From Ruminococcus sp. (GTDB lineage Bacteria > Bacillota > Clostridia > Oscillospirales > Acutalibacteraceae), in NCBI GenBank assembly GCA_017473955.1, contig JAFUIK010000037.1:1-37481 (forward strand): 37,481 nt of DNA, given 5' to 3'. Below, in pieces: positions 3,057 to 37,481 of this stretch. The notes beneath the pieces are model-generated. The model saw nothing but the letters and a program-made list of their open reading frames with translations. It ran no database searches and was not told the DNA's origin. The position numbers were made by a program, and so were the translations under genes. Position 1 is the stretch's first letter; the number at the start of each line of letters is the position of its first letter.

Positions 3057-4517
3057 TTATTTCAAGCTGTCAAAAATGTCAGCAATGATTTCGCGTTCAT
3101 CCATATGGTATTTAACACCACGGATTTCCGGGTAGTCCTCGTGACCCTTACCTGCAAGTACGATAATGTCGCCCGTTTGAGCGTTTTCGATACAGTAGCG
3201 GATAGCGTCAACACGATTAGGAATAACAACATATTCGCCGTCGGTTTTGTTGATGCCGACCTTGATGTCCTCGATGATGTCCATAACATCCTCAAAACGA
3301 GAGTTATCCTCTGTAATAACAGAGAGGTCAGAAAGTCTGCCTGAAACCTCGCCCATCTCGTATCTTCTGTCCTTCGGGCGGTCACCACCGGCACCGAACA
3401 TAGTTACAAGACGTGTCGGGTTGTATTCCTTTAAGGTGGTAAGGATATTTTCCATAGAAAGTGCGTTGTGAGCGTAGTCGATGAGAATTGTGTAATCGCC
3501 CACAACAGGAACAGCCTCAACTCTGCCTTTAACTTTAACTTCGTTAAGACCATCTAAAATATCCTTATCGGTTAAATCAAAGTGACGGCAAACGGAGATT
3601 GCAGCAAGTGCGTTATAAACCGAGAATCTGCCGGGAATTGCAACATCGACAGAAAGCTCAGCTTTGCCGGTTGTGTCAAAGTGAACGCCGATATAGCCAG
3701 CTCTTGCGATAAGAGAATCGTTGTGAGCCACGATATCAGCTTCATCACAAAAGCCGTAGGTTTCGATTTCACAGGTGTGGTCCTTTGTGACTTTATCCCA
3801 CATCTCGTCATCACGGTTGATAAGTCCTACTTTGCACTGCTTGAAGAGTAAGCTCTTGCAGTAGAGGTATTCATCCATATCAGCGTGCTCAGCTTTACCA
3901 ATGTGGTCGTTTGAGAAGTTTGTAAAAATACCGTAGTCAAAAACGATACCATCGGTGCGGTGCCATTTTAGACCGAGAGAAGAAGCCTCAATAACCATAG
4001 CCTTACAACCCTCATTTACCATTCTTCTCATAGCCTGCTGGATTTCATATGATTCAGGTGTTGTGTTGTTTGTTTTATAAATCTGGTTGTCAATTACGAT
4101 ACCCAGTGTGCCGATAGTAGCAGTTTTGATGTTTGCTTTCTCAAGAATTGAGCGAATCATAGCAACGGTTGTTGTTTTGCCCTTTGTACCTGTGATGGCA
4201 ATAGTTTTGAGCTCGTCAGCAGGATGTCCGAAATACTCAACGCTCATATACGCGAGTGCTTTACGGGTGTCAGGAGCTTTTATAACAGTAATACCGCTTG
4301 GTGCTTCCACATCGTCCTGTACAATTAAAGCGGTCGCACCCTTTTCCAGTGCATCAGGGATGAACTTGTGACCGTCAACGTTAAAGCCTTTTAGGCACAC
4401 AAACGCACATCCGTTTGTTACCTTACGCGAATCATAGATAACATCAACGATTTCTATGTCAGTGCTACCCTGTAAAACGGAATAATCACACTGTGTGAGC
4501 AGTTTGCTTAGTTTCAT
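3057..4517 (-). CDS. murE: UDP-N-acetylmuramoyl-tripeptide synthetase (MurE)
   Basis: 486 residues from the ATG at 4517, which has GGAGGG 6 nt upstream; an in-frame ATG at 4544 lacks such a site. MurE adds the third amino acid to UDP-MurNAc-L-Ala-D-Glu in the cytoplasm. The three Mur ligase domains are visible: N-terminal UDP-binding with 'DSRKVTNGCAFVCLKG', ATP-binding loop GTKGKT (110-115), 'TTPESYEIQ', 'EASSLGLKWHR', 'FTNFSNDH', and the C-terminal 'RVEAVPV', 'DYAHNA' and 'GKGHEDYPEI'. The third-residue recognition motif, DNPR in diaminopimelate enzymes, reads DNSR (404-407). The Arg is kept, which favours diaminopimelate, but the Pro-to-Ser change leaves it uncertain. First gene of a three-gene operon. 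Confidence 0.92.
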   Translation of the reverse strand: MKLSKLLTQCDYSVLQGSTDIEIVDVIYDSRKVTNGCAFVCLKGFNVDGHKFIPDALEKGATALIVQDDVEAPSGITVIKAPDTRKALAYMSVEYFGHPADELKTIAITGTKGKTTTVAMIRSILEKANIKTATIGTLGIVIDNQIYKTNNTTPESYEIQQAMRRMVNEGCKAMVIEASSLGLKWHRTDGIVFDYGIFTNFSNDHIGKAEHADMDEYLYCKSLLFKQCKVGLINRDDEMWDKVTKDHTCEIETYGFCDEADIVAHNDSLIARAGYIGVHFDTTGKAELSVDVAIPGRFSVYNALAAISVCRHFDLTDKDILDGLNEVKVKGRVEAVPVVGDYTILIDYAHNALSMENILTTLKEYNPTRLVTMFGAGGDRPKDRRYEMGEVSGRLSDLSVITEDNSRFEDVMDIIEDIKVGINKTDGEYVVIPNRVDAIRYCIENAQTGDIIVLAGKGHEDYPEIRGVKYHMDEREIIADIFDSLK

Positions 4518-4596
4518 AAAATTCCCTCCGATATTTAATCTCATTAGTATGTCTGAGAGTCAGTTTAAATATATATAAGTATATGTCTTAGTTGTA

Positions 4597-16711: not shown

Positions 16712-16759
16712 AAAGTCACTCTAAAGGACCTTTAAGGCCTGTAAAAAAGGATGTTTAAA

Positions 16760-19084
16760 ATGACGTATAAGGAGCTTGCAAAAAAGACTCGTAAAGAAAA
16801 CGAAAGTGCTGTAACTGTCGCTAGAGAAGTTGTTGTACATATTCTGTATTTTTTAGGCGGTGTGTTAGTGTCACGTGGAGCTGTGCTGGGTGAGTTGTCA
16901 CCATTCGGAGCATCTTTTGCGTCTGCCGTGCCCTTTATGTATATGCCATCAGGATTGATGGGCTCAATATTTGGTTTTTTGTTGAGAAACCCCGTTGACA
17001 GCTTTCGCTATATTGCGGTTGTAGTTTCAATCGGAGCTTTGAGATGGGTGCTTAATGAATTCAAAAAAGTATCACAGAGCAGATTTTTTCCTTGCGTAAT
17101 TGCGTTTATACCGATGTTTGTAACAGGAGTTGCACTGACTTTTTCCAGCTCGAGTGAGCTGTCACAGGTTACATACTGCCTTATGGAAGCAACCTTATCT
17201 TCTGCCGGAGCGTACTTTATGAGCAGGACAAGCACGATGTTTTCGTCTAAAAAAAGCCTGTTTTCATTAAGCTCTCAGGAGGTTGCCTGTATCGCGATGA
17301 CAGGGTGCATACTTTTGTTGTCATTTTCGTCACTAACGATAGGGGATGTATCTGTCGGCAGAATACTTGCCGTGCTGATAGTTTTATTGTCAGCAAAGTA
17401 CGGCGGTGTATCGGGCGGTGCAATTACAGGTGTATCAACAGGTATAGTTTTTTCGCTGTCTAGTAACGACTTAATTTTCCTTTGTGCCGGTTTTGCGTTT
17501 TCGGGACTTATGGGTGGTTTGTTTGCTCCTGCAGGGAAGCTTTACGTCGCACTTTCTATGCTCATCTGTAACCTTACTATGTCTTTTTCATCAAACGATA
17601 ATTCGATGATTTTTGCAGTATTTGTTGAGAGCCTTGTCGGCGGAACAATATTTATGCTCTTGCCGAAATCATTGGGAAACTTTGTCAGCAGTATGTTTTC
17701 GGATAAAAGCAAAAGCCCTGATGATGAGGTTGTCAGACGAGCTGTGACTATGAGGCTTTCCTTTGCGTCAAAAGCACTGGAAAACGTAAGCTCGTGCGTA
17801 AATTCTGTGTCCGAAAAGCTATCGCGACTATATACACCTAATGCACAGTGGATTTACGACAACGCGTGTGAGCACACCTGTACGCATTGTGGAATGAGGT
17901 ATTACTGTTTTGAAAAGCAAAAGGAAATGAAAAACGAGGATTTTCACCGTCTTACAGCTTACTTAAAGGAGAATGGCTTTGTTAAGGAACGCGACATAGA
18001 GGATAATTTCAAAATCAGGTGTTGCAGAGCAAGTGAACTCGCACTAAGCATTAATAACAGTTACAACGAGTATGTGTCATGCGAACAAGCACGACAGAGA
18101 ATCACGCAGGTCAGAAGTGTGGTTGCGTCTCAGTTTGCCGGACTTTCGGATATTTTACAGGATATGTCCGAGGAGTTTTTAAGCTACGAAAAGTATGATG
18201 TAGAGTGCAGTGATCGTGTAATTGATTCGCTGATGGCGATGGGGCTTTCTGTGCTTGATTGCAGTTGCAGAATGTGTAAGGGCAAAGGGATGGTGGTTGA
18301 GGTCGCTTTGCTTATCAATAGCAAAATGAACGTTAGTAAAAGTCAGGTAACAAAAGAAATACAAAAGGCGTGTGGTAGAGCGTTTGAGTCGCCGACTATA
18401 AGCTATACTCAGGACGTTGCACGAGTGACCTTGTGTGAAAGACCAGTGTACGACGTTGAAATAGGAACATCTCAACATATTTTCAAAAACGGAGAGTTGT
18501 GCGGTGATTGCCTTAACTATTTCAATAATGGAATGGGAAGCACGGTGGTTGTGTTGTCCGATGGAATGGGAACAGGGGGCAGAGCCGCGGTTGACTCTAA
18601 TATGGCTGTCAGCATTATGACAAAGCTTATTAAAGCAGGACTTTCTTACGATTGCTCACTTTCGGTTGTAAATTCCTCACTTATGATAAAAAGTGAGGAC
18701 GAGTCGCTTGCGACCTTGGATGTTCTGGATTTCAACCTGTTTACTGGAAAGACAGAGCTCTTAAAAGCAGGGGCTTGTGTTACCTATATAAAAAAGAACT
18801 CAAAACTCTACAAAAAGGATATGTCTAGCCTGCCGATAGGGATACTTAACGAGGTAAGATTTGCTAAAGAGTCGATAACCTTGTCAAGTGGTGATTTGAT
18901 TGTTATGGTATCAGACGGAGCACTGACTGGCGATGATGCTTGGCTTGAGCGTATGGTTATGACATTTAAGGACAATAGCTGTGAGGAGCTTGCTTGTTCG
19001 ATTGTTGATGAAGCAAAAAAACGCCGTAATGACGGTCATGATGACGACATTACGGCGATAGCTGTGAGGGTTATTGAAAACTAA
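16760..19084 (+). CDS. spoIIE: Stage II sporulation protein E, membrane PP2C phosphatase
   Basis: 774 residues from the ATG at 16760, with AAAAGGA at a better distance than for the ATG at 16751. SpoIIE sits at the polar septum and dephosphorylates SpoIIAA, which releases sigma-F in the forespore. The N-terminal half has about ten hydrophobic segments (up to about residue 300). A central region has a Cys-rich patch 'CEHTCTHCGMRYYCF'. The C-terminal PP2C domain has 'LSDGMGTGGRAA' (Asp601), 'MVSDG' (Asp719) and 'GHDDDITAIAV', the expected metal-binding aspartates. Length is close to the usual 800. Its stop overlaps the convergent glycosyltransferase stop (CTAA), with no terminator between. Confidence 0.95.
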   Translation: MTYKELAKKTRKENESAVTVAREVVVHILYFLGGVLVSRGAVLGELSPFGASFASAVPFMYMPSGLMGSIFGFLLRNPVDSFRYIAVVVSIGALRWVLNEFKKVSQSRFFPCVIAFIPMFVTGVALTFSSSSELSQVTYCLMEATLSSAGAYFMSRTSTMFSSKKSLFSLSSQEVACIAMTGCILLLSFSSLTIGDVSVGRILAVLIVLLSAKYGGVSGGAITGVSTGIVFSLSSNDLIFLCAGFAFSGLMGGLFAPAGKLYVALSMLICNLTMSFSSNDNSMIFAVFVESLVGGTIFMLLPKSLGNFVSSMFSDKSKSPDDEVVRRAVTMRLSFASKALENVSSCVNSVSEKLSRLYTPNAQWIYDNACEHTCTHCGMRYYCFEKQKEMKNEDFHRLTAYLKENGFVKERDIEDNFKIRCCRASELALSINNSYNEYVSCEQARQRITQVRSVVASQFAGLSDILQDMSEEFLSYEKYDVECSDRVIDSLMAMGLSVLDCSCRMCKGKGMVVEVALLINSKMNVSKSQVTKEIQKACGRAFESPTISYTQDVARVTLCERPVYDVEIGTSQHIFKNGELCGDCLNYFNNGMGSTVVVLSDGMGTGGRAAVDSNMAVSIMTKLIKAGLSYDCSLSVVNSSLMIKSEDESLATLDVLDFNLFTGKTELLKAGACVTYIKKNSKLYKKDMSSLPIGILNEVRFAKESITLSSGDLIVMVSDGALTGDDAWLERMVMTFKDNSCEELACSIVDEAKKRRNDGHDDDITAIAVRVIEN

Positions 19085-27736: not shown

Positions 27737-28315
27737 TTATGCCGTTTTAGACAGGAAAACTGCTCCTTGGTCTATGTAATCGTCAATGATACCGTACATA
27801 CCTGTTACAGGATCCCTGAATAAATCTATTCTTGGTGGAAAAATAGTGAAGCTGAAAAACATAACAAAAAACGTCATTAACAGTAATACTGCAACTGGAA
27901 AGTAATCTGCAATTTGCGAGTTATTTGTTGTGAGTCTAAAAGAAATATATTGGCTTAGTACCACAAATACTCCTGCTGATAGCAAATCAAGCCACAGTAT
28001 AGGTTCTTTGGTGAACAAATTATAAGTGTAGAAAAACGCAATTATGGACATTGATAAAAAGTACAACGAAACAGTCTTTGCTACTACAAATTTTTTAAAC
28101 GGCGGTTTTACCCAAAAAAGCTCTATTACAGACCAAAGAACAAAGCCTACAGCAAAAATTTTTATGTGTTCCCACACGCTTTCGTTAACAGATGCAAAAA
28201 GTATCGACAGAGTTGACCCACCGCTTAATTCGTAAACAAAGTGAAGTAATGTTGCTGTCAGATAGATTATTGGAATACCTGCTATCTCCAAAATTTTGAA
28301 CTTTTTCTCATTCAT
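27737..28315 (-). CDS. Integral membrane protein, DUF6512-like
   Basis: 192 residues with about six hydrophobic segments. 'LLHFVYELSGGSTLSILFASVNESVWEHIKI' and 'PPRIDLFRDPVTGMYGI' are the conserved blocks I associate with the DUF6512 family of uncharacterised clostridial membrane proteins; I could not search to confirm. The ATG directly follows the T-run of a terminator-like hairpin, so its Shine-Dalgarno would be the G-rich 3' arm (GGGGGC) of that hairpin. No terminator is seen after it before the rlmB promoter. Function unknown. Confidence 0.75.
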   Translation of the reverse strand: MNEKKFKILEIAGIPIIYLTATLLHFVYELSGGSTLSILFASVNESVWEHIKIFAVGFVLWSVIELFWVKPPFKKFVVAKTVSLYFLSMSIIAFFYTYNLFTKEPILWLDLLSAGVFVVLSQYISFRLTTNNSQIADYFPVAVLLLMTFFVMFFSFTIFPPRIDLFRDPVTGMYGIIDDYIDQGAVFLSKTA

Positions 28316-28364
28316 AAAAAAGCCCCCGACATATATTAGTGTTATAAAATATATGTCAAAGGCT
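28316..28364 (-). terminator. Terminator hairpin abutting the DUF6512-like start codon
   Basis: On the minus strand a 17-bp stem (28364-28348 with 28337-28321, three G-T pairs) is followed by TTTTTT and immediately ATG (28315). It terminates the upstream small gene. Its 5' arm also contains a perfect TTGACA (28359-28354), so a promoter may be embedded here. Confidence 0.75.
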
Positions 28365-28376
28365 TTGCTGAAATTC

Positions 28377-28640
28377 TTATATAAGCGTGTAAAATATTAC
28401 GGTCGACAATGCTCCGATTGCACAGTACAGACAACAGCAGAGTATTCTGCTTATTAAAACGCTTTTAGGTTTAGCTGAGGACACAGTGTCCATACTTTTG
28501 AGCATTTTCTTTGCCTCTTTTTCGAGCACTTCGCTTGAAATCGACGCGTATTCGGGTCGTAGCACTAAAAGTGCCCGCTCATAATATTTGTTGTTTGTGT
28601 CAGTTACTTCAATTATCTGATGACTTATCCCTTTTATCAT
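28377..28640 (-). CDS. Small conserved-type protein with C-terminal membrane segment
   Basis: 87 residues from the ATG at 28640, with AAGGA 10 nt upstream; a TTG at 28679 is possible but overlaps the likely promoter. The soluble N-terminal part, 'MIKGISHQIIEVTDTNNKYY' then 'ERALLVLRPEYAS', resembles a small protein type I have seen in many Clostridia without known function. The C-terminus is one hydrophobic segment with a CCC run (about 65-85). A TATAAT (28671-28666, minus strand) lies just upstream. It ends in the strong hairpin terminator before the DUF6512-like gene. Confidence 0.65.
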   Translation of the reverse strand: MIKGISHQIIEVTDTNNKYYERALLVLRPEYASISSEVLEKEAKKMLKSMDTVSSAKPKSVLISRILCCCLYCAIGALSTVIFYTLI

Positions 28641-28679
28641 AACAGCACCGTCCTTTTTTCTTACAATTATAATGGTCAA

Positions 28680-28989
28680 ATAGGTGTGCCGGTATACTTT
28701 TTGAGTTTATTTTTCCTTAAAATCAACATTTTGATGTTGAAAAATATTTGTTTTTAGAAATATACAGTTTGTATTATTCAAAATTCCAATAATAAATGTT
28801 GAAAACTATGTGGAAAACAAGGAAAACTTTTTAAAAACCCCTTGGAGATATCTATATCATTACGTTTTTTAGGGTGTTGATAAGTTTTTTCAAAAACTGA
28901 CAGATAAGTTCTTTATCCGAAATTAAGCATAAATAATTTACAAATTGTAATATTTTACAAGTCAACACGTTTTTTGAAATAAAAATAAA
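28680..28989. other. AT-rich intergenic region with DnaA-box-like and TTACAA repeats
   Basis: No gene is supported. Four 9-mers of pattern TGTKGAWAA lie in one orientation at 28735, 28797, 28809 and 28875; two are one mismatch from the DnaA-box complement TGTGGATAA. A trio of half-sites TTACAA / TTGTAA / TTACAA lies at 28938-28960. A hairpin (28723-28729 with 28734-28740) overlaps the first 9-mer. Confidence 0.35.
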
Positions 28990-29022
28990 AAAAGAAGACT
29001 TTTGTGTAAAAAGCCCTCTTTT
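28985..29022 (-). terminator. Terminator of the PAP2 phosphatase gene
   Basis: On the minus strand a 14-bp stem (29022-29009 with 29003-28990, two G-T pairs), 5-nt loop, then TTTATTTTT. It starts about 20 nt after the stop codon. Confidence 0.85.
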
Positions 29023-29042
29023 AAGTGTCTGTTTTATCAAAT

Positions 29043-29588
29043 TTACATAAAGAACTGAGAAAGCTGTGCTTCGAAAACAAGGTTACATACCATTCCGCTT
29101 AAAAATCCCAGAATAGCACCACAGACAACATCGCTCAAATAATGTACTCTCAAGTACATTCTCGAAAAACCAATGATGATAGCGACAAAAAGCACAGGAA
29201 TAAAAATATAAGGCGGGCATCTGAATAATGTCACCGCAAAGGCTGTGAAAGATGAGGCGGTGTGTCCTGACGGGAAGGAGTAGTCCTTTGGCCTTTTTAT
29301 AATCAGCTCATCGTCTTCGAGTAATGAGCTCGGTCTCATACGACCGATGATGTGCTTTATAATAATTTCGCCCAAAATAAAGGTTACTCCGAGTGATAAT
29401 GTCAAGTAAACTCCCGTAGCTCTTGTCCTTTTCATAAGCATAAAAGGAAAGCACAAGGTAATCCACCAGATAAAGGCTCCGTTGCCGAGTTTTGTGAAAA
29501 GAACCATTATTCTATTTAGAAAGGGGGTGTGAAGCTTAGCAATTTTTTCGACGATTAAAGTGTCAAGTCGCTGAATTTTTTTAAGCAT
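29043..29588 (-). CDS. PAP2-family membrane phosphatase
   Basis: 181 residues from the ATG at 29588, which has a very strong AAAGGAGGAAACT site; a longer frame to 29627 has none. The three phosphatase motifs are complete: 'KHIIGRMRP' (KxxxxxxRP), 'SFPSGHTAS' (PSGH) and 'SRMYLRVHYLSDV' (SRxxxxxHxxxD). There are about five membrane segments. Members dephosphorylate undecaprenyl pyrophosphate or phosphatidic acid or related lipids at the outer face; the substrate cannot be told here. It has its own terminator and faces away from the T-box cluster. Confidence 0.93.
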   Translation of the reverse strand: MLKKIQRLDTLIVEKIAKLHTPFLNRIMVLFTKLGNGAFIWWITLCFPFMLMKRTRATGVYLTLSLGVTFILGEIIIKHIIGRMRPSSLLEDDELIIKRPKDYSFPSGHTASSFTAFAVTLFRCPPYIFIPVLFVAIIIGFSRMYLRVHYLSDVVCGAILGFLSGMVCNLVFEAQLSQFFM

Positions 29589-29685
29589 AGTTTCCTCCTT
29601 TGAATAGTATATATAGTATGATACCACAGATTAAGTGATTTGTGTAGTACCTTTTTAAAAGGTGAAAAAATTTTCTTAAAAAATA

Positions 29686-29714
29686 TTGACAAATGTTTTT
29701 TATAGTGTTACACT
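29686..29714 (+). promoter_or_regulatory. Promoter of the first T-box transcript
   Basis: Perfect TTGACA (29686-29691), 17 bp, TACACT (29709-29714) preceded by TGT, an extended -10. Confidence 0.85.
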
Positions 29715-29990
29715 AAGCAAAAATCGAAAAAGCTGTGACGAAGACGGCTGTATTTATTTGTTTTCAGAGAGTCGGTGGAAGGTGAGAACCGATAACGAGT
29801 ATTTATAAAGCCCATCACTTCTGAGCTGAAGGCCCGAACGCGAATAGTCAGTAGACGCCTTCCGTGATTGCTGCGTAAAGGCATAGGGGTTGTTGGACTC
29901 CGAGAGTGGCAGAGTTATCTGCAATTTGAGTGGTACCGCGAGTGTATTTTACACCCGTCTCAAAGGTTTCTTTGAGACGGGCTTTTTTGA
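29715..29990 (+). promoter_or_regulatory. T-box riboswitch, specifier AUC (isoleucine)
   Basis: The leader has all T-box parts: a stem I distal 'AGAGAGTCGG...ACCGA' segment (from 29766), the basal pairing GAAG/CTTC, the specifier loop, the T-box 'TTTGAGTGGTACCGCG' ending near 29941, and a 12-bp terminator (29954-29965 with 29970-29981) with T6. Aligned with the known glyQS layout (specifier, purine, then the basal stem and TGAGC), the codon before ACTTCTGAGC is ATC (29814-29816), isoleucine. The UGGU bulge fits a tRNA with discriminator A, as in tRNA-Ile. Uncharged tRNA should stop termination and turn the gene on. Confidence 0.9.
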
Positions 29991-30022
29991 TTTTTGAATC
30001 ATTTTTTCAGGAGGAGTTTATT

Positions 30023-32293
30023 ATGGCTCAAGTTGAAACTCAAAAGCTATTAGAGATAGCGGTAAGAATTAAGGAAATGAGAGAAATCTTCGGTTTTTCT
30101 GTCGAAGATATGGCAAAGAGAACAGAGGTTAGCGTTGAAGAGTACGTTGACTTTGAAAGCGGAAAGCTGGACTTCCCGTTCACATTTATTCATAAGTGTT
30201 CTTTAGCATTCAATATCGGTATTTCAGACCTTTTGGAGGGTAAGAGTGCTCTGCTTTCTTCATATACAGTTACTCGTAAGGGCCAGGGTCAGCAGACCGC
30301 AAAAGAGGACGGCATTTCTATCCAGAACCTCGCTCCTTGGTTTAGAAAAAAGATTTCTGAGCCTTATTTTGTAACATACCAGTATTCACAGGAATTACAG
30401 AATAAGCCTATTCATCTTACAAAACACTCAGGTCAGGAATTTGACTATGTTATAAAAGGTAAGCTTAAAATTCAGGTTGGCGACAATGTTGAGTATCTTT
30501 GTGAGGGCGACAGCATTTACTACAACTCATCTACTCCTCACGGTATGATTGCCGTTGATGGAGAAGAGTGCCAGTTCGTAGCAGTTGTATTACCTGGCGA
30601 GAATGAGTCTGAGGATATCATCCGCGATACTCTTATGTCACATAACGAAGTTGCTGACACAAAGCTTTTATGTGAGGAGTTTATCAAGACTACAGTTGAT
30701 GAAAAAGGCTGCTTAAAGGCTATTGACTTCGAAAACGAGGACAGATATAACTTTGCTTTTGATACAGTTGACGCTATCGCTAAGAAAGACCCTGAAAAGC
30801 TTGCAATGATTCACGTTTCAAGGGATAAAGTCGAACGTAGATTTACATTTAACGATATGAAGCGTAAGTCGGCTCAGGCTGCAAACTATTTTAAGAGCTT
30901 AGGTATCAAAAAGGGCGACAGAGTAATGCTTGTATTAAAGCGTCACTATCAGTTCTGGTTTGCAATCTTAGGTTTGCATAAACTGGGTGCTATCGCAATC
31001 CCTGCAACTAACCAGCTTCAGGCTCACGATTTTGACTACCGCTTTAACGCAGCAGGTGTTAGTGCAATTGTTTGTACTGCTGACGGCGATGTATCTCATC
31101 AGGTTGATATTGCTCAGGAAAAATCTCCTACACTTAAGACTAAGGTGTTAGTCGGCGGTCAGAGAGATGGCTGGCATAGCTTTGATGAGGAGTTTGACCT
31201 TTTCTCAGCTCATTACTACAGAAATGAAGATACACCTTGTGGTGATGACCCGATGCTTATGTTCTTTACATCAGGTACTACAGGTTATCCAAAAATCGCT
31301 TTACATTCATATAAATATCCGCTTGGTCATTTTATTACAGCTAAATATTGGCATAGTGTGTCAAGTGACGGCTTGCACTTTACAATCTCCGATACAGGTT
31401 GGGGTAAAGCATTATGGGGTAAGCTCTACGGTCAGTGGCTTAGTGAGGGTGCAGTATTCACCTATGACTTTGACCGTTTTGACGCATCGGATATCCTGCC
31501 GATGTTTAAGCAGTATGGTATCACAACCTTCTGTGCACCACCAACAATGCTTAGAATGATGATTAAGCAGGATTTATCAAAGTACGATTTCTCAACCGTT
31601 AAGCGTGCCACAACAGCAGGCGAAGCGTTAAACCCTGAGGTTTACAAGCAGTTTAAAATGGCTACAGGTCTTAAGCTTAAAGAGGGCTTTGGTCAGACAG
31701 AAACAACACTTTCTATCGCTAATCTTATCGGTGAGCCAAGTAAACTCGGCTCAATGGGTAAGCCTGTACCACTTTATGATATGCACATTTTGGATGCTGA
31801 CGGCAACGAAGTGCCTGACGGTGAAGTTGGCGAAATCTGCGTAAAAACTTCCGATAAAGTTCCGTGTGGTCTGTTCCTTGGATATTACAAAGATGAGGAA
31901 AAAACAAAGGAAGTTTACCACGATGGTTACTATCACACAGGCGACACAGCTTGGCGTGATGAGGACGGCTTCCTTTGGTATGTCGGTCTAGTTGACGATG
32001 TTATCAAGAGTTCAGGTTACCGTATCGGACCGTTTGAAATCGAGTCTGTTATTATGGAACTTCCTTATGTACTTGAGTGCGGTGTATCCGCAGAGCCTGA
32101 CGAAGTAAGAGGTCAGGTAGTAAAGGCGTCTATCGTGCTGGTTAAGGGTACAAATCCAAGTGAAGACCTCAAGAAAGAAATCCAGAATTACGTAAAGAGC
32201 CGTACAGCTCCGTACAAATATCCACGTATAGTTGTATTCAGGGATGACCTTCCAAAGACAATCAGCGGTAAAATCCAGAGAAATAAGCTTTAA
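30023..32293 (+). CDS. HTH-cupin-AMP-dependent acyl-CoA synthetase fusion, Ile T-box controlled
   Basis: 756 residues from the ATG at 30023 (GGAGGAG upstream); the longer frame to 29930 starts inside the riboswitch. Domains: XRE-type helix-turn-helix (about 5-72, 'VRIKEMREIFGFSVEDMAKR'), cupin (about 125-190, 'HSGQEFDYVIKGKLKIQVGD' and 'TPHGMIAV'), then a complete adenylate-forming synthetase: 'FTSGTTGYPK' P-loop, 'GFGQTET', 'YHTGDTAWRDEDGF', 'VDDVIKSSGYRIGPFEIES' and 'PKTISGKIQRNKL' with catalytic Lys750. It would activate a carboxylic acid to acyl-CoA via acyl-AMP. The Ile-type T-box and the linked oxidoreductase suggest 2-methylbutyrate as substrate (inference). The HTH may only be a fold partner of the cupin. 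Confidence 0.9.
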   Translation: MAQVETQKLLEIAVRIKEMREIFGFSVEDMAKRTEVSVEEYVDFESGKLDFPFTFIHKCSLAFNIGISDLLEGKSALLSSYTVTRKGQGQQTAKEDGISIQNLAPWFRKKISEPYFVTYQYSQELQNKPIHLTKHSGQEFDYVIKGKLKIQVGDNVEYLCEGDSIYYNSSTPHGMIAVDGEECQFVAVVLPGENESEDIIRDTLMSHNEVADTKLLCEEFIKTTVDEKGCLKAIDFENEDRYNFAFDTVDAIAKKDPEKLAMIHVSRDKVERRFTFNDMKRKSAQAANYFKSLGIKKGDRVMLVLKRHYQFWFAILGLHKLGAIAIPATNQLQAHDFDYRFNAAGVSAIVCTADGDVSHQVDIAQEKSPTLKTKVLVGGQRDGWHSFDEEFDLFSAHYYRNEDTPCGDDPMLMFFTSGTTGYPKIALHSYKYPLGHFITAKYWHSVSSDGLHFTISDTGWGKALWGKLYGQWLSEGAVFTYDFDRFDASDILPMFKQYGITTFCAPPTMLRMMIKQDLSKYDFSTVKRATTAGEALNPEVYKQFKMATGLKLKEGFGQTETTLSIANLIGEPSKLGSMGKPVPLYDMHILDADGNEVPDGEVGEICVKTSDKVPCGLFLGYYKDEEKTKEVYHDGYYHTGDTAWRDEDGFLWYVGLVDDVIKSSGYRIGPFEIESVIMELPYVLECGVSAEPDEVRGQVVKASIVLVKGTNPSEDLKKEIQNYVKSRTAPYKYPRIVVFRDDLPKTISGKIQRNKL

Positions 32294-32307
32294 AATTTTG
32301 AAAAATA

Positions 32308-32336
32308 TTGACATATTTCCAAAGTTATGATATATT
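32308..32336 (+). promoter_or_regulatory. Promoter of the second T-box transcript
   Basis: Perfect TTGACA (32308-32313), 17 bp, TATATT (32331-32336), preceded by TGA. It begins 15 nt after the stop of the first synthetase; no terminator is seen between. Confidence 0.8.
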
Positions 32337-32339
32337 ATT

Positions 32340-32616
32340 ACCGTGTTTTTAAAAAGGCTATGACGAAGAGTACACATTAGTATGACCTACAGAGAGGTAG
32401 CGGTTGGTGGAAGCTACCGGAATACAGCTTTTGTGTTTGTAGCTTCTGAGCCGAGAGGAAGAAAGCGAAAGTGAGTAGAACCTCTCCGTGATTGCTGCGT
32501 AAATGCATAGAGGTTGTTAGACCTCGAGAGTGGCGATTGTATCGCAATTTGAGTGGTACCGCGGGTGATTATTACGCACTCGTCTCAAAGATAACTTTGG
32601 GACGGGTGTTTTTTTC
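32340..32616 (+). promoter_or_regulatory. T-box riboswitch, specifier GUA (valine)
   Basis: Same architecture as the first: GACGAAG basal arm, 'AGAGAGGTAGC...GCTACC' distal stem, the CTTCTGAGCC segment, T-box 'TTTGAGTGGTACCGCGGG', and a 14-bp terminator (32577-32590 with 32595-32608) with T7. The codon before GCTTCTGAGC is GTA (32439-32441), valine, followed by the usual purine. The UGGU bulge fits tRNA-Val (discriminator A). Read-through from the first synthetase would also have to pass this terminator. Confidence 0.88.
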
Positions 32617-32642
32617 GTCCTAACAAAAAAGGAGAATGTATC

Positions 32643-34931
32643 ATGCAACAAATGACAGGTCTTGACTACAAAATTCAGGAAATGGCGGCTCGTATCAGAG
32701 AGCTTAGAGAAATCCAGAACTTAACCGTTGAGCAAATGGCTAAGAAAACCGACGTTACGGTTGATGAATATTTAAGCTGTGAGGCAGGTAAAAGCGACTT
32801 AAACTTCGCTTTTATTTATCGTTGTGCGATGGCTCTTTCTGTCAATGTTACCGATATTATCGAGGGTTACTCACCTAACCTTAAAAGCTACTCGGTAACA
32901 AGAGCAGGCTTAGGTCAGAAAGTAGCACAGGCTCACGGTATGACTTACTACAACTTGGCTTATGCGTTTCAAAATCGTATCGCCGAGCCATTATATGTTC
33001 GCTCTGTTTATGATGAAAATGCTCAGAATAACGACATCGAGCTCACAACCCACGAAGGTCAGGAGCTTGACATCGTAATCGAGGGTAACCTGATGGTACA
33101 GGTTGGCGAGCACAAGGAGATTTTAGGCCCTGGCGACACTATCTATTTTGACTCAGATAAGCCACACGGTATGATTGCCGTTAACGGTAAAGATTGTGTG
33201 TTCTATGCTATCGTGCTTAACCCTACAGGTGAGCCTATCCCTGAGCTTAGTTCGGGTAAAATCGTTGAGATTAAGAAGACTGAAAGAAAGCACGAAGCTG
33301 ACCGTATATATAAAAAGTATGTTGATGTTGAAGAAAATGAAAAGGGTACACCAACATCAATCAAGTTTAAAAACACCGATAACTTTAACTTTGCATTTGA
33401 CCTCGTTGATGCTCTCGCTGACAAAAAGCCTGAGAAGCTCGCGATGTTACATATTTCGAAAGACCACACAGAGCGTAGATTTACTTTCAAGGATATGAAG
33501 AAAGCGTCTGCTCAGTGTGCTAACTACTTTAAGTCCTTAGGCATCAAAAAGGGCGACAGAGTTATGCTTATCTTAAAGCGTCACTACCAATTCTGGTTTG
33601 CTATGCTTGGACTTAACAAACTCGGTGCTATTGCCATACCTGCACCTAACCAGTTGCAGGCTCACGACCTTGAGTACCGCTTAAAGAGTGCAGGAATCTG
33701 TACGGTTATCTGTACTGCTGATGACGATGTTGCTCATCAGGTTGATATTGCAAGCGAGGGTTATGACGGTCTCAAGAATAAGCTTATTGTTAACGGTGAG
33801 CGTGAGGGCTGGCGTAACTTTGATGACGAATACACATTGTATTCAACACATTATAACAGAGCAGAGGATGCTCCTTGTGGCGATGATTTAATGCTTATGT
33901 ACTTTACATCAGGTACATCAGGCTATCCTAAGATTGCGGCTCACAACTACCGCTATCCACTCGGTCATTTCCATACTGCCAAATACTGGCACAACGTTGA
34001 CCCTGAGGGTCTCCACTACACAATTTCAGACACAGGCTGGGCTAAGGCTATGTGGGGTAAGCTCTATGGCCAGTGGCTGTGCGAGGCGGCAACTTTCGTT
34101 TATGACTTTGACCGCTTTGACGCTGCTGATATCCTGCCTATGTTTGCAAAATATCAGATTACAACATTCTGTGCACCACCAACAATGCTTAGAATGATGG
34201 TAAAACAGGATATCTCAAAATACGATTTCTCATCAGTACAGCATATGACAACAGCAGGTGAAGCGCTTAACCCTGAGGTTTATCGTCAGTTTGAAAAGGC
34301 TACAGGCTTACAGATTATTGAGGGCTTTGGTCAGACTGAGAGTACAATGATTGTAGGTAATATGACAGGTGCTCCGCATAAAATCGGCTCTATGGGCAAG
34401 CCTGCACCAATTTATGACGTAATGCTTGTTGATTCTGACGGCAACGAAGTACCGGACGGTGAGCCAGGCGAAATCGTTGTTAACCTTAAAAACGGTCATC
34501 CTTGTGGCTTATTTGTTGGTTACTACGGCGACGAAGAAAAGACCAAGGAAGTTATGCACGACGGTATTTACCATACAGGTGACGTTGCTTGGCGTGATGA
34601 GGACGGCTTCTTCTTCTACGAGGGTAGAGTTGATGACGTTATTAAGTCATCCGGCTATCGTATCGGACCGTTTGAGATTGAGTCTGTTATTATGGAGCTT
34701 CCATATGTCTTAGAATGTGGTGTTTCTGCCGCTCCGGATGAAGTAAGAGGTCAGATTGTTAAGGCTTCTATCGTACTTACTAAGGGCACAGAAGGCAGCG
34801 ACGACCTTAAGAAAGAAATCCAGTCTTATGTAAAGAGCCGTACAGCTCCTTACAAGTACCCTCGACTTGTTGTGTTCAGAGATGAACTTCCAAAGACAGT
34901 CAGCGGTAAAATCCAGAGAAACAAACTTTAA
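32643..34931 (+). CDS. HTH-cupin-AMP-dependent acyl-CoA synthetase fusion, Val T-box controlled
   Basis: 762 residues, AAAAGGAG upstream. It is paralogous to the protein at 30023 over its whole length, most closely in the synthetase and C-terminal parts, least in the linker after the cupin. HTH (about 5-70, 'ARIRELREIQNLTVEQMAKK'), cupin (about 130-190, 'THEGQELDIVIEGNLMVQVG', 'KPHGMIAV'), synthetase with 'FTSGTSGYPK', 'GFGQTEST', 'YHTGDVAWRDEDGF' and 'PKTVSGKIQRNKL' (Lys756). The valine T-box and the following VorB-type oxidoreductase genes suggest isobutyrate activation (inference). The next gene starts 14 nt downstream without promoter or terminator, so the whole 32.3-37.5 kb block is probably one T-box-controlled operon. 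Confidence 0.9.
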   Translation: MQQMTGLDYKIQEMAARIRELREIQNLTVEQMAKKTDVTVDEYLSCEAGKSDLNFAFIYRCAMALSVNVTDIIEGYSPNLKSYSVTRAGLGQKVAQAHGMTYYNLAYAFQNRIAEPLYVRSVYDENAQNNDIELTTHEGQELDIVIEGNLMVQVGEHKEILGPGDTIYFDSDKPHGMIAVNGKDCVFYAIVLNPTGEPIPELSSGKIVEIKKTERKHEADRIYKKYVDVEENEKGTPTSIKFKNTDNFNFAFDLVDALADKKPEKLAMLHISKDHTERRFTFKDMKKASAQCANYFKSLGIKKGDRVMLILKRHYQFWFAMLGLNKLGAIAIPAPNQLQAHDLEYRLKSAGICTVICTADDDVAHQVDIASEGYDGLKNKLIVNGEREGWRNFDDEYTLYSTHYNRAEDAPCGDDLMLMYFTSGTSGYPKIAAHNYRYPLGHFHTAKYWHNVDPEGLHYTISDTGWAKAMWGKLYGQWLCEAATFVYDFDRFDAADILPMFAKYQITTFCAPPTMLRMMVKQDISKYDFSSVQHMTTAGEALNPEVYRQFEKATGLQIIEGFGQTESTMIVGNMTGAPHKIGSMGKPAPIYDVMLVDSDGNEVPDGEPGEIVVNLKNGHPCGLFVGYYGDEEKTKEVMHDGIYHTGDVAWRDEDGFFFYEGRVDDVIKSSGYRIGPFEIESVIMELPYVLECGVSAAPDEVRGQIVKASIVLTKGTEGSDDLKKEIQSYVKSRTAPYKYPRLVVFRDELPKTVSGKIQRNKL

Positions 34932-34944
34932 TTTACATATATAA

Positions 34945-35616
34945 ATGATTATGAGAGATTTTAAACGAATTACTTTGCTTTGCGGGCACTATGGTAGTGG
35001 CAAAACAAATGTTGCTGTTAACTTTGCATTAGAGCTAAGAAAACAGCGTGACAGGGTGGCTATCGCTGACCTTGATATTGTCAATCCGTATTTTCGTTCA
35101 AAGGACTCCAGCTCTGAGTTTGAAGACAACGGCATCCGCCTTATCTGCTCAGAATTTGCTAACTCCAATGTCGATATTCCCGCATTGCCTCAGGATATGT
35201 ACGCTATAACCGATGATAAAGAGCTTTCTGTTATTATCGATGTCGGCGGCGATGACAGAGGAGCACTCGCTCTTGGTCGTCTAGCCCCAAAAATAGTAGA
35301 AGAAAACGACTACGAGATGCTGATGGTAATTAACTGCTATCGTCCGCTCACTCGTGATGCAGAGTCTACTATCGAAGTTATGCGTGAAATTGAATATGCA
35401 GGACACATAAAATTTACGGGAATTATCAATAATTCAAATTTGGGTATTGCTACCACCCCCCAAGATGTGTTAAAATCAATAGAATACGCAAAGGAAGTGG
35501 CAAAACTGTCAGACCTTCCTCTGCTGTACACTACCGTCACTGACGATATATATAATGACTTATGCGACAAGATAGAAAACCTCTTGCCACTGAGTCTTCA
35601 GGCAAGACCTGTATAA
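34945..35616 (+). CDS. P-loop ATPase of the MinD/ParA-like type
   Basis: 223 residues. The N-terminal 'LLCGHYGSGKTNVAVNFALEL' is a Walker A, 'VAIADLDIVNPYFRS' follows as the switch region typical of MinD/ParA/NifH-like ATPases, and 'SVIIDVGGDDRGALALG' is Walker B-like. There is no membrane segment. It sits between the synthetase and the oxidoreductase subunits. A role in maturation or metal-cluster handling of the iron-sulfur oxidoreductase, or in its regulation, is possible but not shown. No Shine-Dalgarno is evident; two ATGs (34945, 34951) lie close after the preceding stop, so translation may be coupled. Confidence 0.85.
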   Translation: MIMRDFKRITLLCGHYGSGKTNVAVNFALELRKQRDRVAIADLDIVNPYFRSKDSSSEFEDNGIRLICSEFANSNVDIPALPQDMYAITDDKELSVIIDVGGDDRGALALGRLAPKIVEENDYEMLMVINCYRPLTRDAESTIEVMREIEYAGHIKFTGIINNSNLGIATTPQDVLKSIEYAKEVAKLSDLPLLYTTVTDDIYNDLCDKIENLLPLSLQARPV

Positions 35617-35642
35617 GATTATAAGGAAAGGGAGAGTTTTTA

Positions 35643-35849
35643 ATGGCTAAATTAACATTCAAAACTGACAACTGCAAGGGTTGTGGACTGTGCGTTGAGG
35701 CTTGTCCAAAGAACTTGCTCATCCTTGCAAAAGACGAAATTAACAAAAAGGGTCATCATCCAGCTGTTATCACTGACGAGAGCAGTTGTATCGGTTGTGC
35801 TTTCTGTGCAACAATGTGCCCTGACTGCGTAATTAAGGTAGAGAGGTGA
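35643..35849 (+). CDS. 4Fe-4S ferredoxin-type subunit of 2-oxoacid oxidoreductase (delta)
   Basis: 68 residues. It contains two complete cluster motifs, 'CKGCGLCVEACP' and 'CIGCAFCATMCP', binding two 4Fe-4S clusters. It is the small electron-transfer (delta) subunit of the oxidoreductase whose alpha and beta subunits follow, passing electrons to or from free ferredoxin. GGAAAGGGAG precedes the ATG and the alpha gene starts 7 nt later. Confidence 0.93.
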   Translation: MAKLTFKTDNCKGCGLCVEACPKNLLILAKDEINKKGHHPAVITDESSCIGCAFCATMCPDCVIKVER

Positions 35850-35856
35850 GAAAATA

Positions 35857-36918
35857 ATGGCAGATAAAGTATTGATGAAAGGTAACGAAGCTATCGCTGA
35901 GGCTGCTATACTTGCAGGTTGTAAGCACTACTTCGGTTATCCTATTACTCCACAGACAGAAATCGCTGCTTATATGGCTAAGAAAATGCCAAAAATCGGT
36001 GGTTGCTTTTTACAGGCTGAAAGTGAGATCGCTGCTATCAATATGGTATATGGTGTAGCTTCAACAGGTAAGCGTGTTATGACATCTTCATCTTCACCTG
36101 GTATTTCACTTAAGGGTGAGGGTCTGTCATACATGGCAGGTTCAGATTTACCTTGTCTTGTTGTTAACGTACAGCGTGGTGGTCCTGGTCTTGGCGGTAT
36201 CCAGCCTAGCCAGTCTGACTATTTCCAGGCTACAAAGGGCGGAGCACACGGCGACTTCAGAATGATTGTTTTAGCTCCTGCATCAGTTCAGGAAATGGCA
36301 GAGCTCACAGTAAAAGGTTTTGAGCTTGCAGATAAATACAGAATGACTTCTATGATTTTAGCTGACGGTACTATGGGTCAGATGATGGAGCCTGTAGAGC
36401 TTGACTTTGATATTAAAGAGCGTCCTGAAACTCCTTGGGCTACAACAGGCACAAAGATGGAGCGTGAGCACAATATCGTAAACTCACTCTCTTTAGTTGC
36501 AGAAGAGCTTGAGCGTCTTAACTTTGAAAGATTTGAGCGTTACAAGGCTGTTGAAGAGAACGAAACAATGTACGAAGAGTTTATGACTGAGGATGCTGAT
36601 ATTATCGTTGCCGCTTTTGGTATTGCTTCTCGTGTTTCTAAGAACGCTATCGTAGAAGCAAGAAAGCAGGGCATCAAGGTTGGTCTTATCCGTCCAATCA
36701 CACTCTGGCCTTTCCCTAAGGCTCCGTTTGAGAAAGTTGCAAACACAGCTAAGGCTGTTGTTTGTGTTGAGCTTTCAATGGGTCAGATGATTGAGGATGT
36801 TAAGCTTGCAACAGGTTGTAAGGTTCCTGTAACTCTTTGCAACCGTGTTGGCGGTATGATTCCATCCCCTGAACAGGTATTAGAGGCTATTATTGAGGCA
36901 AACGGAGGTGCAAACTAA
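35857..36918 (+). CDS. vorB: 2-oxoacid:ferredoxin oxidoreductase alpha subunit, VorB type
   Basis: 353 residues. Together with the beta and (off-window) gamma subunits it converts 2-oxoacids to acyl-CoA and CO2 with ferredoxin, or the reverse. Marks: 'MKGNEAIAEAAILAGCKHYF' then 'GYPITPQTEI', 'FLQAESEIAAINMVYGVAST', 'TSSSSPGISLKGEGLSYMAG', 'VNVQRGGPGLGGIQPSQSDY' and a C-terminal 'RPITLWPFP' and 'VVCVELSMGQMIEDV'. This form is usually annotated as the branched-chain (2-oxoisovalerate) enzyme VorB, though 2-oxoglutarate or other 2-oxoacid enzymes look similar. Valine-type T-box control of the operon supports branched-chain substrates. The stop overlaps the beta start (TAATG). Confidence 0.88.
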   Translation: MADKVLMKGNEAIAEAAILAGCKHYFGYPITPQTEIAAYMAKKMPKIGGCFLQAESEIAAINMVYGVASTGKRVMTSSSSPGISLKGEGLSYMAGSDLPCLVVNVQRGGPGLGGIQPSQSDYFQATKGGAHGDFRMIVLAPASVQEMAELTVKGFELADKYRMTSMILADGTMGQMMEPVELDFDIKERPETPWATTGTKMEREHNIVNSLSLVAEELERLNFERFERYKAVEENETMYEEFMTEDADIIVAAFGIASRVSKNAIVEARKQGIKVGLIRPITLWPFPKAPFEKVANTAKAVVCVELSMGQMIEDVKLATGCKVPVTLCNRVGGMIPSPEQVLEAIIEANGGAN

Positions 36919-37481
36919 TGGCAGTAGTATTTGATAAACCACACGCTCTGGCAGATGTGCCTATGCACTATTGTCCGGGTTGTTTACACGGTGTTGTACA
37001 CCGTCTTGTTGCTGAGGTTATTGATGAGCTCGGTATCGAGGGCAGAACTATCGGTATTGCAACGGTTGGTTGCTCTGTTATGGCATATAATTATTTCAAC
37101 TGCGATATGATTGAGGCGGCTCACGGTCGTGCTCCTGCAGTTGCTACAGGTGTTAAGCGTTCAGACCCTGAGAACAACATCGTATTTACATATCAGGGTG
37201 ACGGTGATTTAGCGTCTATCGGTATGGCTGAAACTGTACACTCAGCTGCTAGAAACGAAAACATCACAATTATCTTTATCAACAACGCTATTTACGGTAT
37301 GACAGGCGGTCAGATGGCTCCAACATCACTTCCTGGTCAGGTAACACAGACTTCTCCATACGGCAGAGATGTTAACCACTGCGGTTATCCTATCCGTTTT
37401 TGTGAGATGCTAAGTCAGCTTGAAGGTCCTGAGTATTTAGAGCGTGTTACAGTTAATAACGTTAAGAATATCAAAAACGCT
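36918..37481 (+). CDS. 2-oxoacid:ferredoxin oxidoreductase beta subunit (TPP-binding), 3' end off window
   Basis: 188 codons are open to the window edge. The N-terminal 'HYCPGCLHGVVHRLVAEVID' cysteine pair and 'GIATVGCSVMAYNYFNCDMI' fit the beta subunit. 'FTYQGDGDLASIGMAE' followed by 'INNAIYGMTGGQMAPTS' is the thiamine-pyrophosphate and magnesium motif. It is the catalytic partner of the VorB-type alpha subunit. GGAGGTG lies inside the end of the alpha gene and the ATG overlaps the alpha stop by one base. A gamma subunit gene would be expected to follow. Confidence 0.93.
   Translation, partial: MAVVFDKPHALADVPMHYCPGCLHGVVHRLVAEVIDELGIEGRTIGIATVGCSVMAYNYFNCDMIEAAHGRAPAVATGVKRSDPENNIVFTYQGDGDLASIGMAETVHSAARNENITIIFINNAIYGMTGGQMAPTSLPGQVTQTSPYGRDVNHCGYPIRFCEMLSQLEGPEYLERVTVNNVKNIKNA

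Follow-up and report, generated by a model that had tools for sequence, protein, structure and literature searches.

That bacteria of the rumen use isovalerate, isobutyrate and 2-methylbutyrate to make Leu, Val and Ile is long-established knowledge, 2-methylbutyrate being a precursor of Ile and isobutyrate one of Val (PMC7356843, available part). This reductive carboxylation (Allison, Bryant, Robinson and others, as cited in the same part of PMC7356843) has the same substrates and products as those predicted here for a gene cluster of a Ruminococcus genome. The work cited there consists of physiology and labelling, whereas the present locus offers candidate genes and their predicted regulation, and no paper describing dedicated genes and control for the carboxylation of branched acids in the rumen was found in the literature searched.

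The leaders that control this locus have in common with the T-boxes of amino acid genes (Rfam family RF00230) a stem I with specifier, an AGAGA loop region, the T-box sequence, an antiterminator and a terminator. They differ from known T-boxes in that they precede acyl-CoA ligases and a predicted carboxylating oxidoreductase; in the main text of the TBDB paper, the part of that source covered, there is no mention of “CoA”, “oxidoreductase” or “fatty acid”. Similarly, no description of T-box control of acyl-CoA ligases, or of a ligase fused to a helix-turn-helix (HTH) and cupin part, was found in the literature searched, which covered a minority of subscription papers.

Among proteins of solved structure, the one closest by sequence to both ligases of the locus is MacsMa of Methanosarcina acetivorans (PDB 3ETC; scores of 616 and 627 bits over almost the full 580 residues), the preferred substrate of which is 2-methylbutyrate (PMC10455477, available part). 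The catalytic domain is alike, and MacsMa carries a Gly after a GW motif, as does ligase 1. Unlike the window ligases, however, MacsMa is archaeal, a 580-residue chain without an HTH-cupin part in the match. The best NCBIfam family for both ligases is MbcS (NF047394), with scores of 431 and 430.5 bits that are about half the equivalog cut-off of 850, which is not reached; compared to MbcS, the window ligases have extra N-terminal domains and are under T-box control. The N-terminal part in turn resembles the XRE-cupin regulators, represented by PDB 1y9q (HTH_3 family), which gives a weak match (E 7e-4) to HTH and cupin over residues 8–196 of ligase 2. In contrast to these regulators, the HTH-cupin part of the window ligases is fused to an enzyme. 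The rumen chemistry is old, but the gene set, the T-box circuit, in which each amino acid has its own ligase, and the fusion of regulator and enzyme appear to be new within the literature searched.

T-box leaders and genes of the locus

The window, i.e., the whole stretch of 37,481 nucleotides that was analysed, contains the following features of the predicted pathway:

29686..29714, + strand: promoter-like TTGACA-17-TACACT with TG before the −10; consensus match only
29726..29965, + strand: T-box leader, specifier AUC (Ile); RF00230 match 92.2 bits, E 1.1e-19
29954..29987, + strand: intrinsic terminator of the Ile T-box, alternative to the antiterminator; 12 pairs, −21.1 kcal/mol
30023..32293, + strand: ligase 1 (ACS1), XRE-HTH + cupin + AMP-binding acyl-CoA ligase; predicted 2-methylbutyryl-CoA synthetase
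32308..32336, + strand: promoter-like TTGACA-17-TATATT with TG before the −10; consensus match only
32351..32590, + strand: T-box leader, specifier GUA (Val); RF00230 match 92.0 bits, E 1.3e-19
32576..32615, + strand: intrinsic terminator of the Val T-box; 15 pairs, −22.6 kcal/mol
32643..34931, + strand: ligase 2 (ACS2), XRE-HTH + cupin + AMP-binding acyl-CoA ligase; predicted isobutyryl-CoA synthetase
34945..35616, + strand: P-loop ATPase of the MinD/ParA/CbiA kind, 223 residues; in the same place in many relatives
35643..35849, + strand: ferredoxin-like delta subunit of 2-oxoacid:ferredoxin oxidoreductase
35857..36918, + strand: VorB, 2-oxoisovalerate:ferredoxin oxidoreductase family; NF005507 536.5 bits, cut-off 399
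36918..37481, + strand: VorA (TPP subunit), incomplete at the contig end

An earlier, sequence-only reading of this DNA had placed two acyl-CoA synthetase genes behind T-boxes that read Ile (AUC) and Val (GUA), the second in an operon with a VorB-type oxidoreductase. Both assignments were borne out, the former by a permissive Rfam covariance scan of positions 28300–37481 in which the specifiers were taken from the Rfam alignment columns (E about 1e-19), the latter by the VorB score well above the NF005507 cut-off. At the Rfam gathering threshold (score 93) no T-box is listed for the window, because its two leaders fall just under this score. The six corresponding ligase leaders in genomes G066, G088 and G059 lie on both sides of the RF00230 gathering score, three above (95.0–99.9) and three under (81.1–85.0).

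The T-box sequence UGGUACCGCG is present in the Ile leader as well as in the Val leader. In both, the 5′ arm of the terminator is the 3′ arm of the antiterminator, and terminators of equal stability were obtained in 0 of 200 shuffles; on account of this shared arm and of the strong terminators, both leaders have the appearance of transcriptional T-boxes. Leaders for Ile, Val and Leu share the extended −10, and promoter-like sites in the region (15 found, 16.7 expected from shuffles) are not in excess. No palindrome stands out at the promoters, where an operator of the HTH part was sought as an inverted repeat. The whole genome holds nine T-boxes, among which the Rfam columns read UUC before pheS, GCU before alaS and ACC before thrS. 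A UGG T-box precedes a gene run with trpB. These four readings agree with the genes that they precede; the specifier columns of one before aspS (gene identified by eye) are not readable.

Ligases 1 and 2 are 65% identical and start at ATG 30023 and ATG 32643. A mechanical open-reading-frame call had put the start of ligase 1 at GTG 29930, a position that falls inside the leader, and ATG 30023 is the most likely start. The P-loop ATPase between ligase 2 and the ferredoxin is possibly a maturation factor. The Vor delta, beta (partial) and gamma subunits adjacent to VorB score below the cut-offs of their own models.

The last 209 bases of the window recur, with 2 mismatches, at the end of another contig of the same genome (C12, other strand); this contig completes VorA and continues with VorC and the branched-chain aminotransferase IlvE (TIGR01123, 413.7 against a cut-off of 250.05). 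Because of this overlap, and because the same order is unbroken in relatives such as L015 and L016, the two contigs are evidently neighbours and IlvE is evidently found in the same operon as ligase 2.

Pairing of ligases and specifiers in relatives

A scan of genome contigs identified at least 575 confirmed relatives and listed 80 loci, which are considered here. Many of these are from gut or rumen samples and carry labels such as Ruminococcus, Oscillospiraceae, Clostridia and the like, and a few are from Erysipelotrichaceae, Lachnospiraceae or Solobacterium. A usual order is a Leu T-box followed by a LeuA-like gene and a gene referred to as TIM-ligase, an Ile T-box followed by ligase 1, a Val T-box followed by ligase 2, and then ATPase, ferredoxin, VorBAC and IlvE; gene order and content vary among the 80 loci listed. 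Both ligases are present in 59 of these 80 loci, and a TIM-ligase (>50% identity, either strand) in 27. Where at least 3.5 kb of sequence remains after the last ligase, as at 61 of the listed loci, VorB follows in 57 and IlvE in 42; no VorB follows in the other four.

Specifiers in the relatives were read using a stem I covariance model, which gave 153 hits; the best 150 of the 153 were aligned (L007, L087:1562 and L041:8078 were excluded), and 144 of these 150 fall in the 80 loci listed. Among the gene-assigned leaders of these loci, all 70 that precede ligase 1 read AUC (Ile), all 47 that precede ligase 2 read Val (40 GUA and 7 GUC), and all 22 that precede LeuA-like genes read Leu (15 CUC, 6 CUG and 1 CUU). 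The Ile and Val specifiers of the sequence-only reading, i.e., AUC and GUA in the window, are in this manner matched in amino acid by all of these ligase leaders; that the specifiers suit the function of the genes depends on the predicted pathway. Five leaders at the same loci are without a recognised downstream gene (2 Val, 3 Leu). The synonymous specifier changes keep the amino acid, and the stem I pairs covary (99.1% of cells paired, compared to 82.0% in shuffles, in an alignment fitted to the model).

The stem I model was built from 34 leaders that had been chosen for the expected amino acid by a first caller, and 105 of the 139 gene-assigned leaders are outside this set. Control leaders of three near-complete relatives gave the expected reading in 14 of 15 hits (valS, ileS, tyrS, pheS, cysE, alaS, thrS, trpB), with gene names assigned by eye and confirmed by a family model for 6 of the 15. 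Three weak leaders were misread, i.e., L002 and L004 of the own genome, which the alignment of Rfam itself reads as UUC and GCU, and L112 before asnB. A second stem I search gave two weak extra hits outside T-boxes (L097:3082 and L116:2166) and missed L105. A hand-made specifier caller, which yielded the expected amino acid for 63 of 69 ligase-1, 39 of 47 ligase-2 and 13 of 20 LeuA-like leaders, was replaced by the stem I model; its misses, when read by eye, fit the expectation except at L081, where the leader is cut off.

A tree of 134 ligases splits into two paralogue clades (support 100) with no specifier crossing between them. Ligase 1 accounts for 80 rows, of which 71 have an Ile leader and 9 no leader found, and ligase 2 for 54, of which 45 have a Val leader and 9 none (18 rows without a leader found).

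Domains and putative substrates of the ligases

In a domain scan of 22 ligases picked out of the 134 full-length proteins, the AMP-forming domains PF00501 and PF13193 were both present in all 22, as was Cupin_2, and HTH_19 was found in 21 (E up to 0.001). In the window ligases, the HTH scores are under the Pfam cut-offs and the cupin scores above. The domains agree with the proposed identity as acyl-CoA ligases; the HTH-cupin fusion had been overlooked. This fusion probably originated from neighbouring genes, because a separate HTH-cupin gene adjoins the ligase gene in several relatives (L150–L154, L156 and L159). We conjecture that the HTH-cupin part most likely provides a second, protein-level control, through either ligand sensing or autoregulation.

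Twelve positions differ consistently (threshold 85%) between the 80 ligase-1 and the 54 ligase-2 proteins, and 11 of these are located in the N-terminal HTH-cupin part (residues 9–192). The sole such position of the ligase domain is found directly after the GW motif, where all 80 ligase-1 proteins have Gly (Gly461) and all 54 ligase-2 proteins have Ala (Ala467). We take this position to line the acyl pocket in Acs. The aligned residue in solved enzymes is Gly in MacsMa (3etc), Ala in 4-hydroxybutyrate-CoA ligase, Val in acetyl-CoA synthetase and Ile in ACSM2A. Gly is also found in four members outside the main set that are located behind an Ile T-box (L150, L157 and L158 by Rfam alignment, L155 by eye), and among six relatives whose fetched stretch shows no T-box motif, three have Ala and three Met. 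Because ACSM2A has Ile and some of the relatives without T-box have Ala, the residue alone does not set the substrate; the Gly/Ala site is a possible one-residue explanation of substrate choice, as judged from these alignments.

Standard enzymes of branched-chain amino acid synthesis

A search of this genome (completeness 83.2%) for IlvC, IlvD and acetolactate synthase found none of the three, with control genomes positive in 14 of 14 cases for each; this result is in line with the proposal of the sequence-only reading that Ile and Val are made by another route. Because of the incompleteness of the genome, the absences rest partly on relatives. In G066, a genome of the same genus that is listed as 100% complete, neither IlvC nor IlvD was found.

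A family survey comprised 150 genomes (requested completeness at least 80%), with the number of genomes carrying two fusions compiled by hand from the scan list. IlvC was present in 3 of the 26 genomes that have two full-length fusions, in 10 of the 20 that have one and in 72 of the 104 that have none; the difference between the two-ligase genomes and all others (82 of 124) corresponds to a Fisher p of 3e-7, in which kinship is not corrected for. Tests of a further 16 genomes revealed IlvD in three, exactly those among them that carry IlvC. Because three two-ligase genomes keep both IlvC and IlvD, the route is not always a replacement. An acetolactate synthase over the cut-off was found in none of four genomes, where G088 has a weaker relative (175 vs 538 bits). 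LeuC over the cut-off was found in none of 17 genomes, the sole LeuC-sized second homologues being those of the three IlvC carriers, and LeuB in 2 of 6, both IlvC carriers. Many of these bacteria seem to be without the textbook Ile/Val pathway, apparently with the salvage route in its stead.

Proposed function and alternative explanations

The RNA elements and their specifiers, the gene order, the strict pairing of clade and specifier and the non-finding of the standard enzymes are seen in the sequences themselves, and in our judgment their function is very probably a starvation-gated salvage in which Ile and Val are formed from branched-chain volatile fatty acids; the substrates, the direction of flux and the response to tRNA are what we infer. 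In this mechanism, uncharged tRNA-Ile or tRNA-Val would bind the T-box leader and stabilise the antiterminator, which would allow RNA polymerase to enter the gene. Ligase 1 would activate 2-methylbutyrate, and ligase 2 isobutyrate, to the CoA esters at the expense of ATP, upon which Vor together with reduced ferredoxin would carboxylate the esters to 3-methyl-2-oxopentanoate and 2-oxoisovalerate. Enzymes of the Vor type are reversible in principle. Both 2-oxoacids would then be aminated by IlvE, and the route would replace acetolactate synthase, IlvC and IlvD. The specifiers, the missing Ilv enzymes, the IlvE that is evidently part of the operon and the nearest solved enzyme, which prefers 2-methylbutyrate, are all consistent with the earlier proposal that the locus serves to make Ile and Val.

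An alternative destination of the CoA esters would be the membrane lipids, such that a shortage of Ile or Val leads to activation of branched acids as CoA primers for fatty acid synthesis. Precedents are MbcS of Staphylococcus, by which branched acids are converted to CoA primers, and the ability of branched acyl-CoA to start the synthesis of branched fatty acids. MbcS is also the best family match of both ligases, though far below its cut-off. We nevertheless consider this explanation improbable: ligase 2 shares a gene run with Vor and, evidently, with IlvE, neither of which is needed for lipid supply; one mixed ligase would suffice, while two ligases matched to Ile and Val specifiers in all gene-assigned leaders fit amino acids better; and a search of this genome gave no acetolactate synthase, IlvC or IlvD.

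Less probable still is the oxidative direction, in which IlvE and Vor would break Ile and Val down to acyl-CoA and acids as a source of energy, with the T-boxes reporting on amino acid supply. Vor enzymes do operate oxidatively in peptide fermenters, but T-boxes switch on upon lack of the amino acid, which is the wrong sign for degradation, the ligases belong to the AMP-forming superfamily (PF00501, PF13193), which spends ATP, and the aminotransferase alone was found among the standard Ile/Val enzymes searched for. The leaders could also be degenerate, or their specifiers misread, such that the pairing arose by chance. Both window leaders are just under the Rfam cut-off and the stem I model did misread three weak control leaders (L002, L004 and L112); such an explanation is nonetheless hardly credible when 139 of 139 gene-assigned leaders agree among the 80 loci listed, 105 of which are outside model building, when the stem I structure covaries and when synonymous specifiers occur.

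With the salvage of branched acids as the preferred reading, the locus gives named candidates for each step of branched-acid carboxylation, and the specifier codon acts as an internal indicator of the amino acid that each ligase serves. The salvage route also predicts that these Clostridia and amino acid fermenters are linked by a dependence on cross-feeding, and would add carboxylic acid activation to the functions under T-box control. A broader scheme, which we regard as slightly less likely than not and put forward tentatively, is that many gut Firmicutes gave up de novo branched-chain synthesis for scavenged acids, and that the enzymes predicted to activate the acids for Ile, Val, Leu and, in some of these bacteria, Phe are each gated by the matching T-box. 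The Ile/Val ligases may then combine an enzyme with a DNA-binding cupin sensor, in an operon that would sense the missing amino acid by RNA and the acid or CoA ester by protein.

Leucine, phenylalanine and other branches

The Ile and Val T-boxes of the sequence-only reading were confirmed, but that reading missed both the branches for Leu and Phe and how broad the system is. On the minus strand of contig C12 (L011:5954-10956), a Leu (CUC) T-box is followed by a LeuA-like protein, a TIM-ligase and an amidohydrolase. The LeuA-like protein carries the LeuA allosteric domain, and the TIM-ligase joins a xylose-isomerase-like TIM barrel and an acyl-CoA ligase in one fusion protein. LeuB and LeuC over the cut-off were not found in this genome. 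A natural guess is that the Leu branch forms isovaleryl-CoA for Leu, a scheme that does not account for the orphan LeuA.

Another contig (C7, L010:5696-11830) harbors an acyl-CoA ligase and IorAB, i.e., indolepyruvate oxidoreductase, followed by a Phe (UUC) T-box, a phenylacetate-CoA ligase and an ACT-pair protein. For this branch the same logic is predicted, with Phe formed from phenylacetate. Of the 30 PaaK loci that were fetched, five, that of the own genome among them, have a T-box before PaaK (16 of the 30 were covered by the Rfam scan), and the specifier is UUC in all five, four by the Rfam columns and L128 by eye, because the columns are one base off there.

A Trp (UGG) T-box on contig C4 (L013:7385-9502) is located before the S component of an ECF transporter and a tryptophan synthase beta protein, which suggests formation of Trp from imported material such as indole. 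In a further genome (G050, L157:1-13001), a ligase fusion of a distant subfamily is found behind an Ile (AUC) T-box, directly before genes that by eye resemble those of the shikimate pathway. Elsewhere in the window, positions 16751-19084 encode a SpoIIE-like protein (385 bits, cut-off 490.8) and positions 3057-4544 MurE; judging by these two proteins, the organism would seem to form spores or to descend from a spore-forming ancestor.
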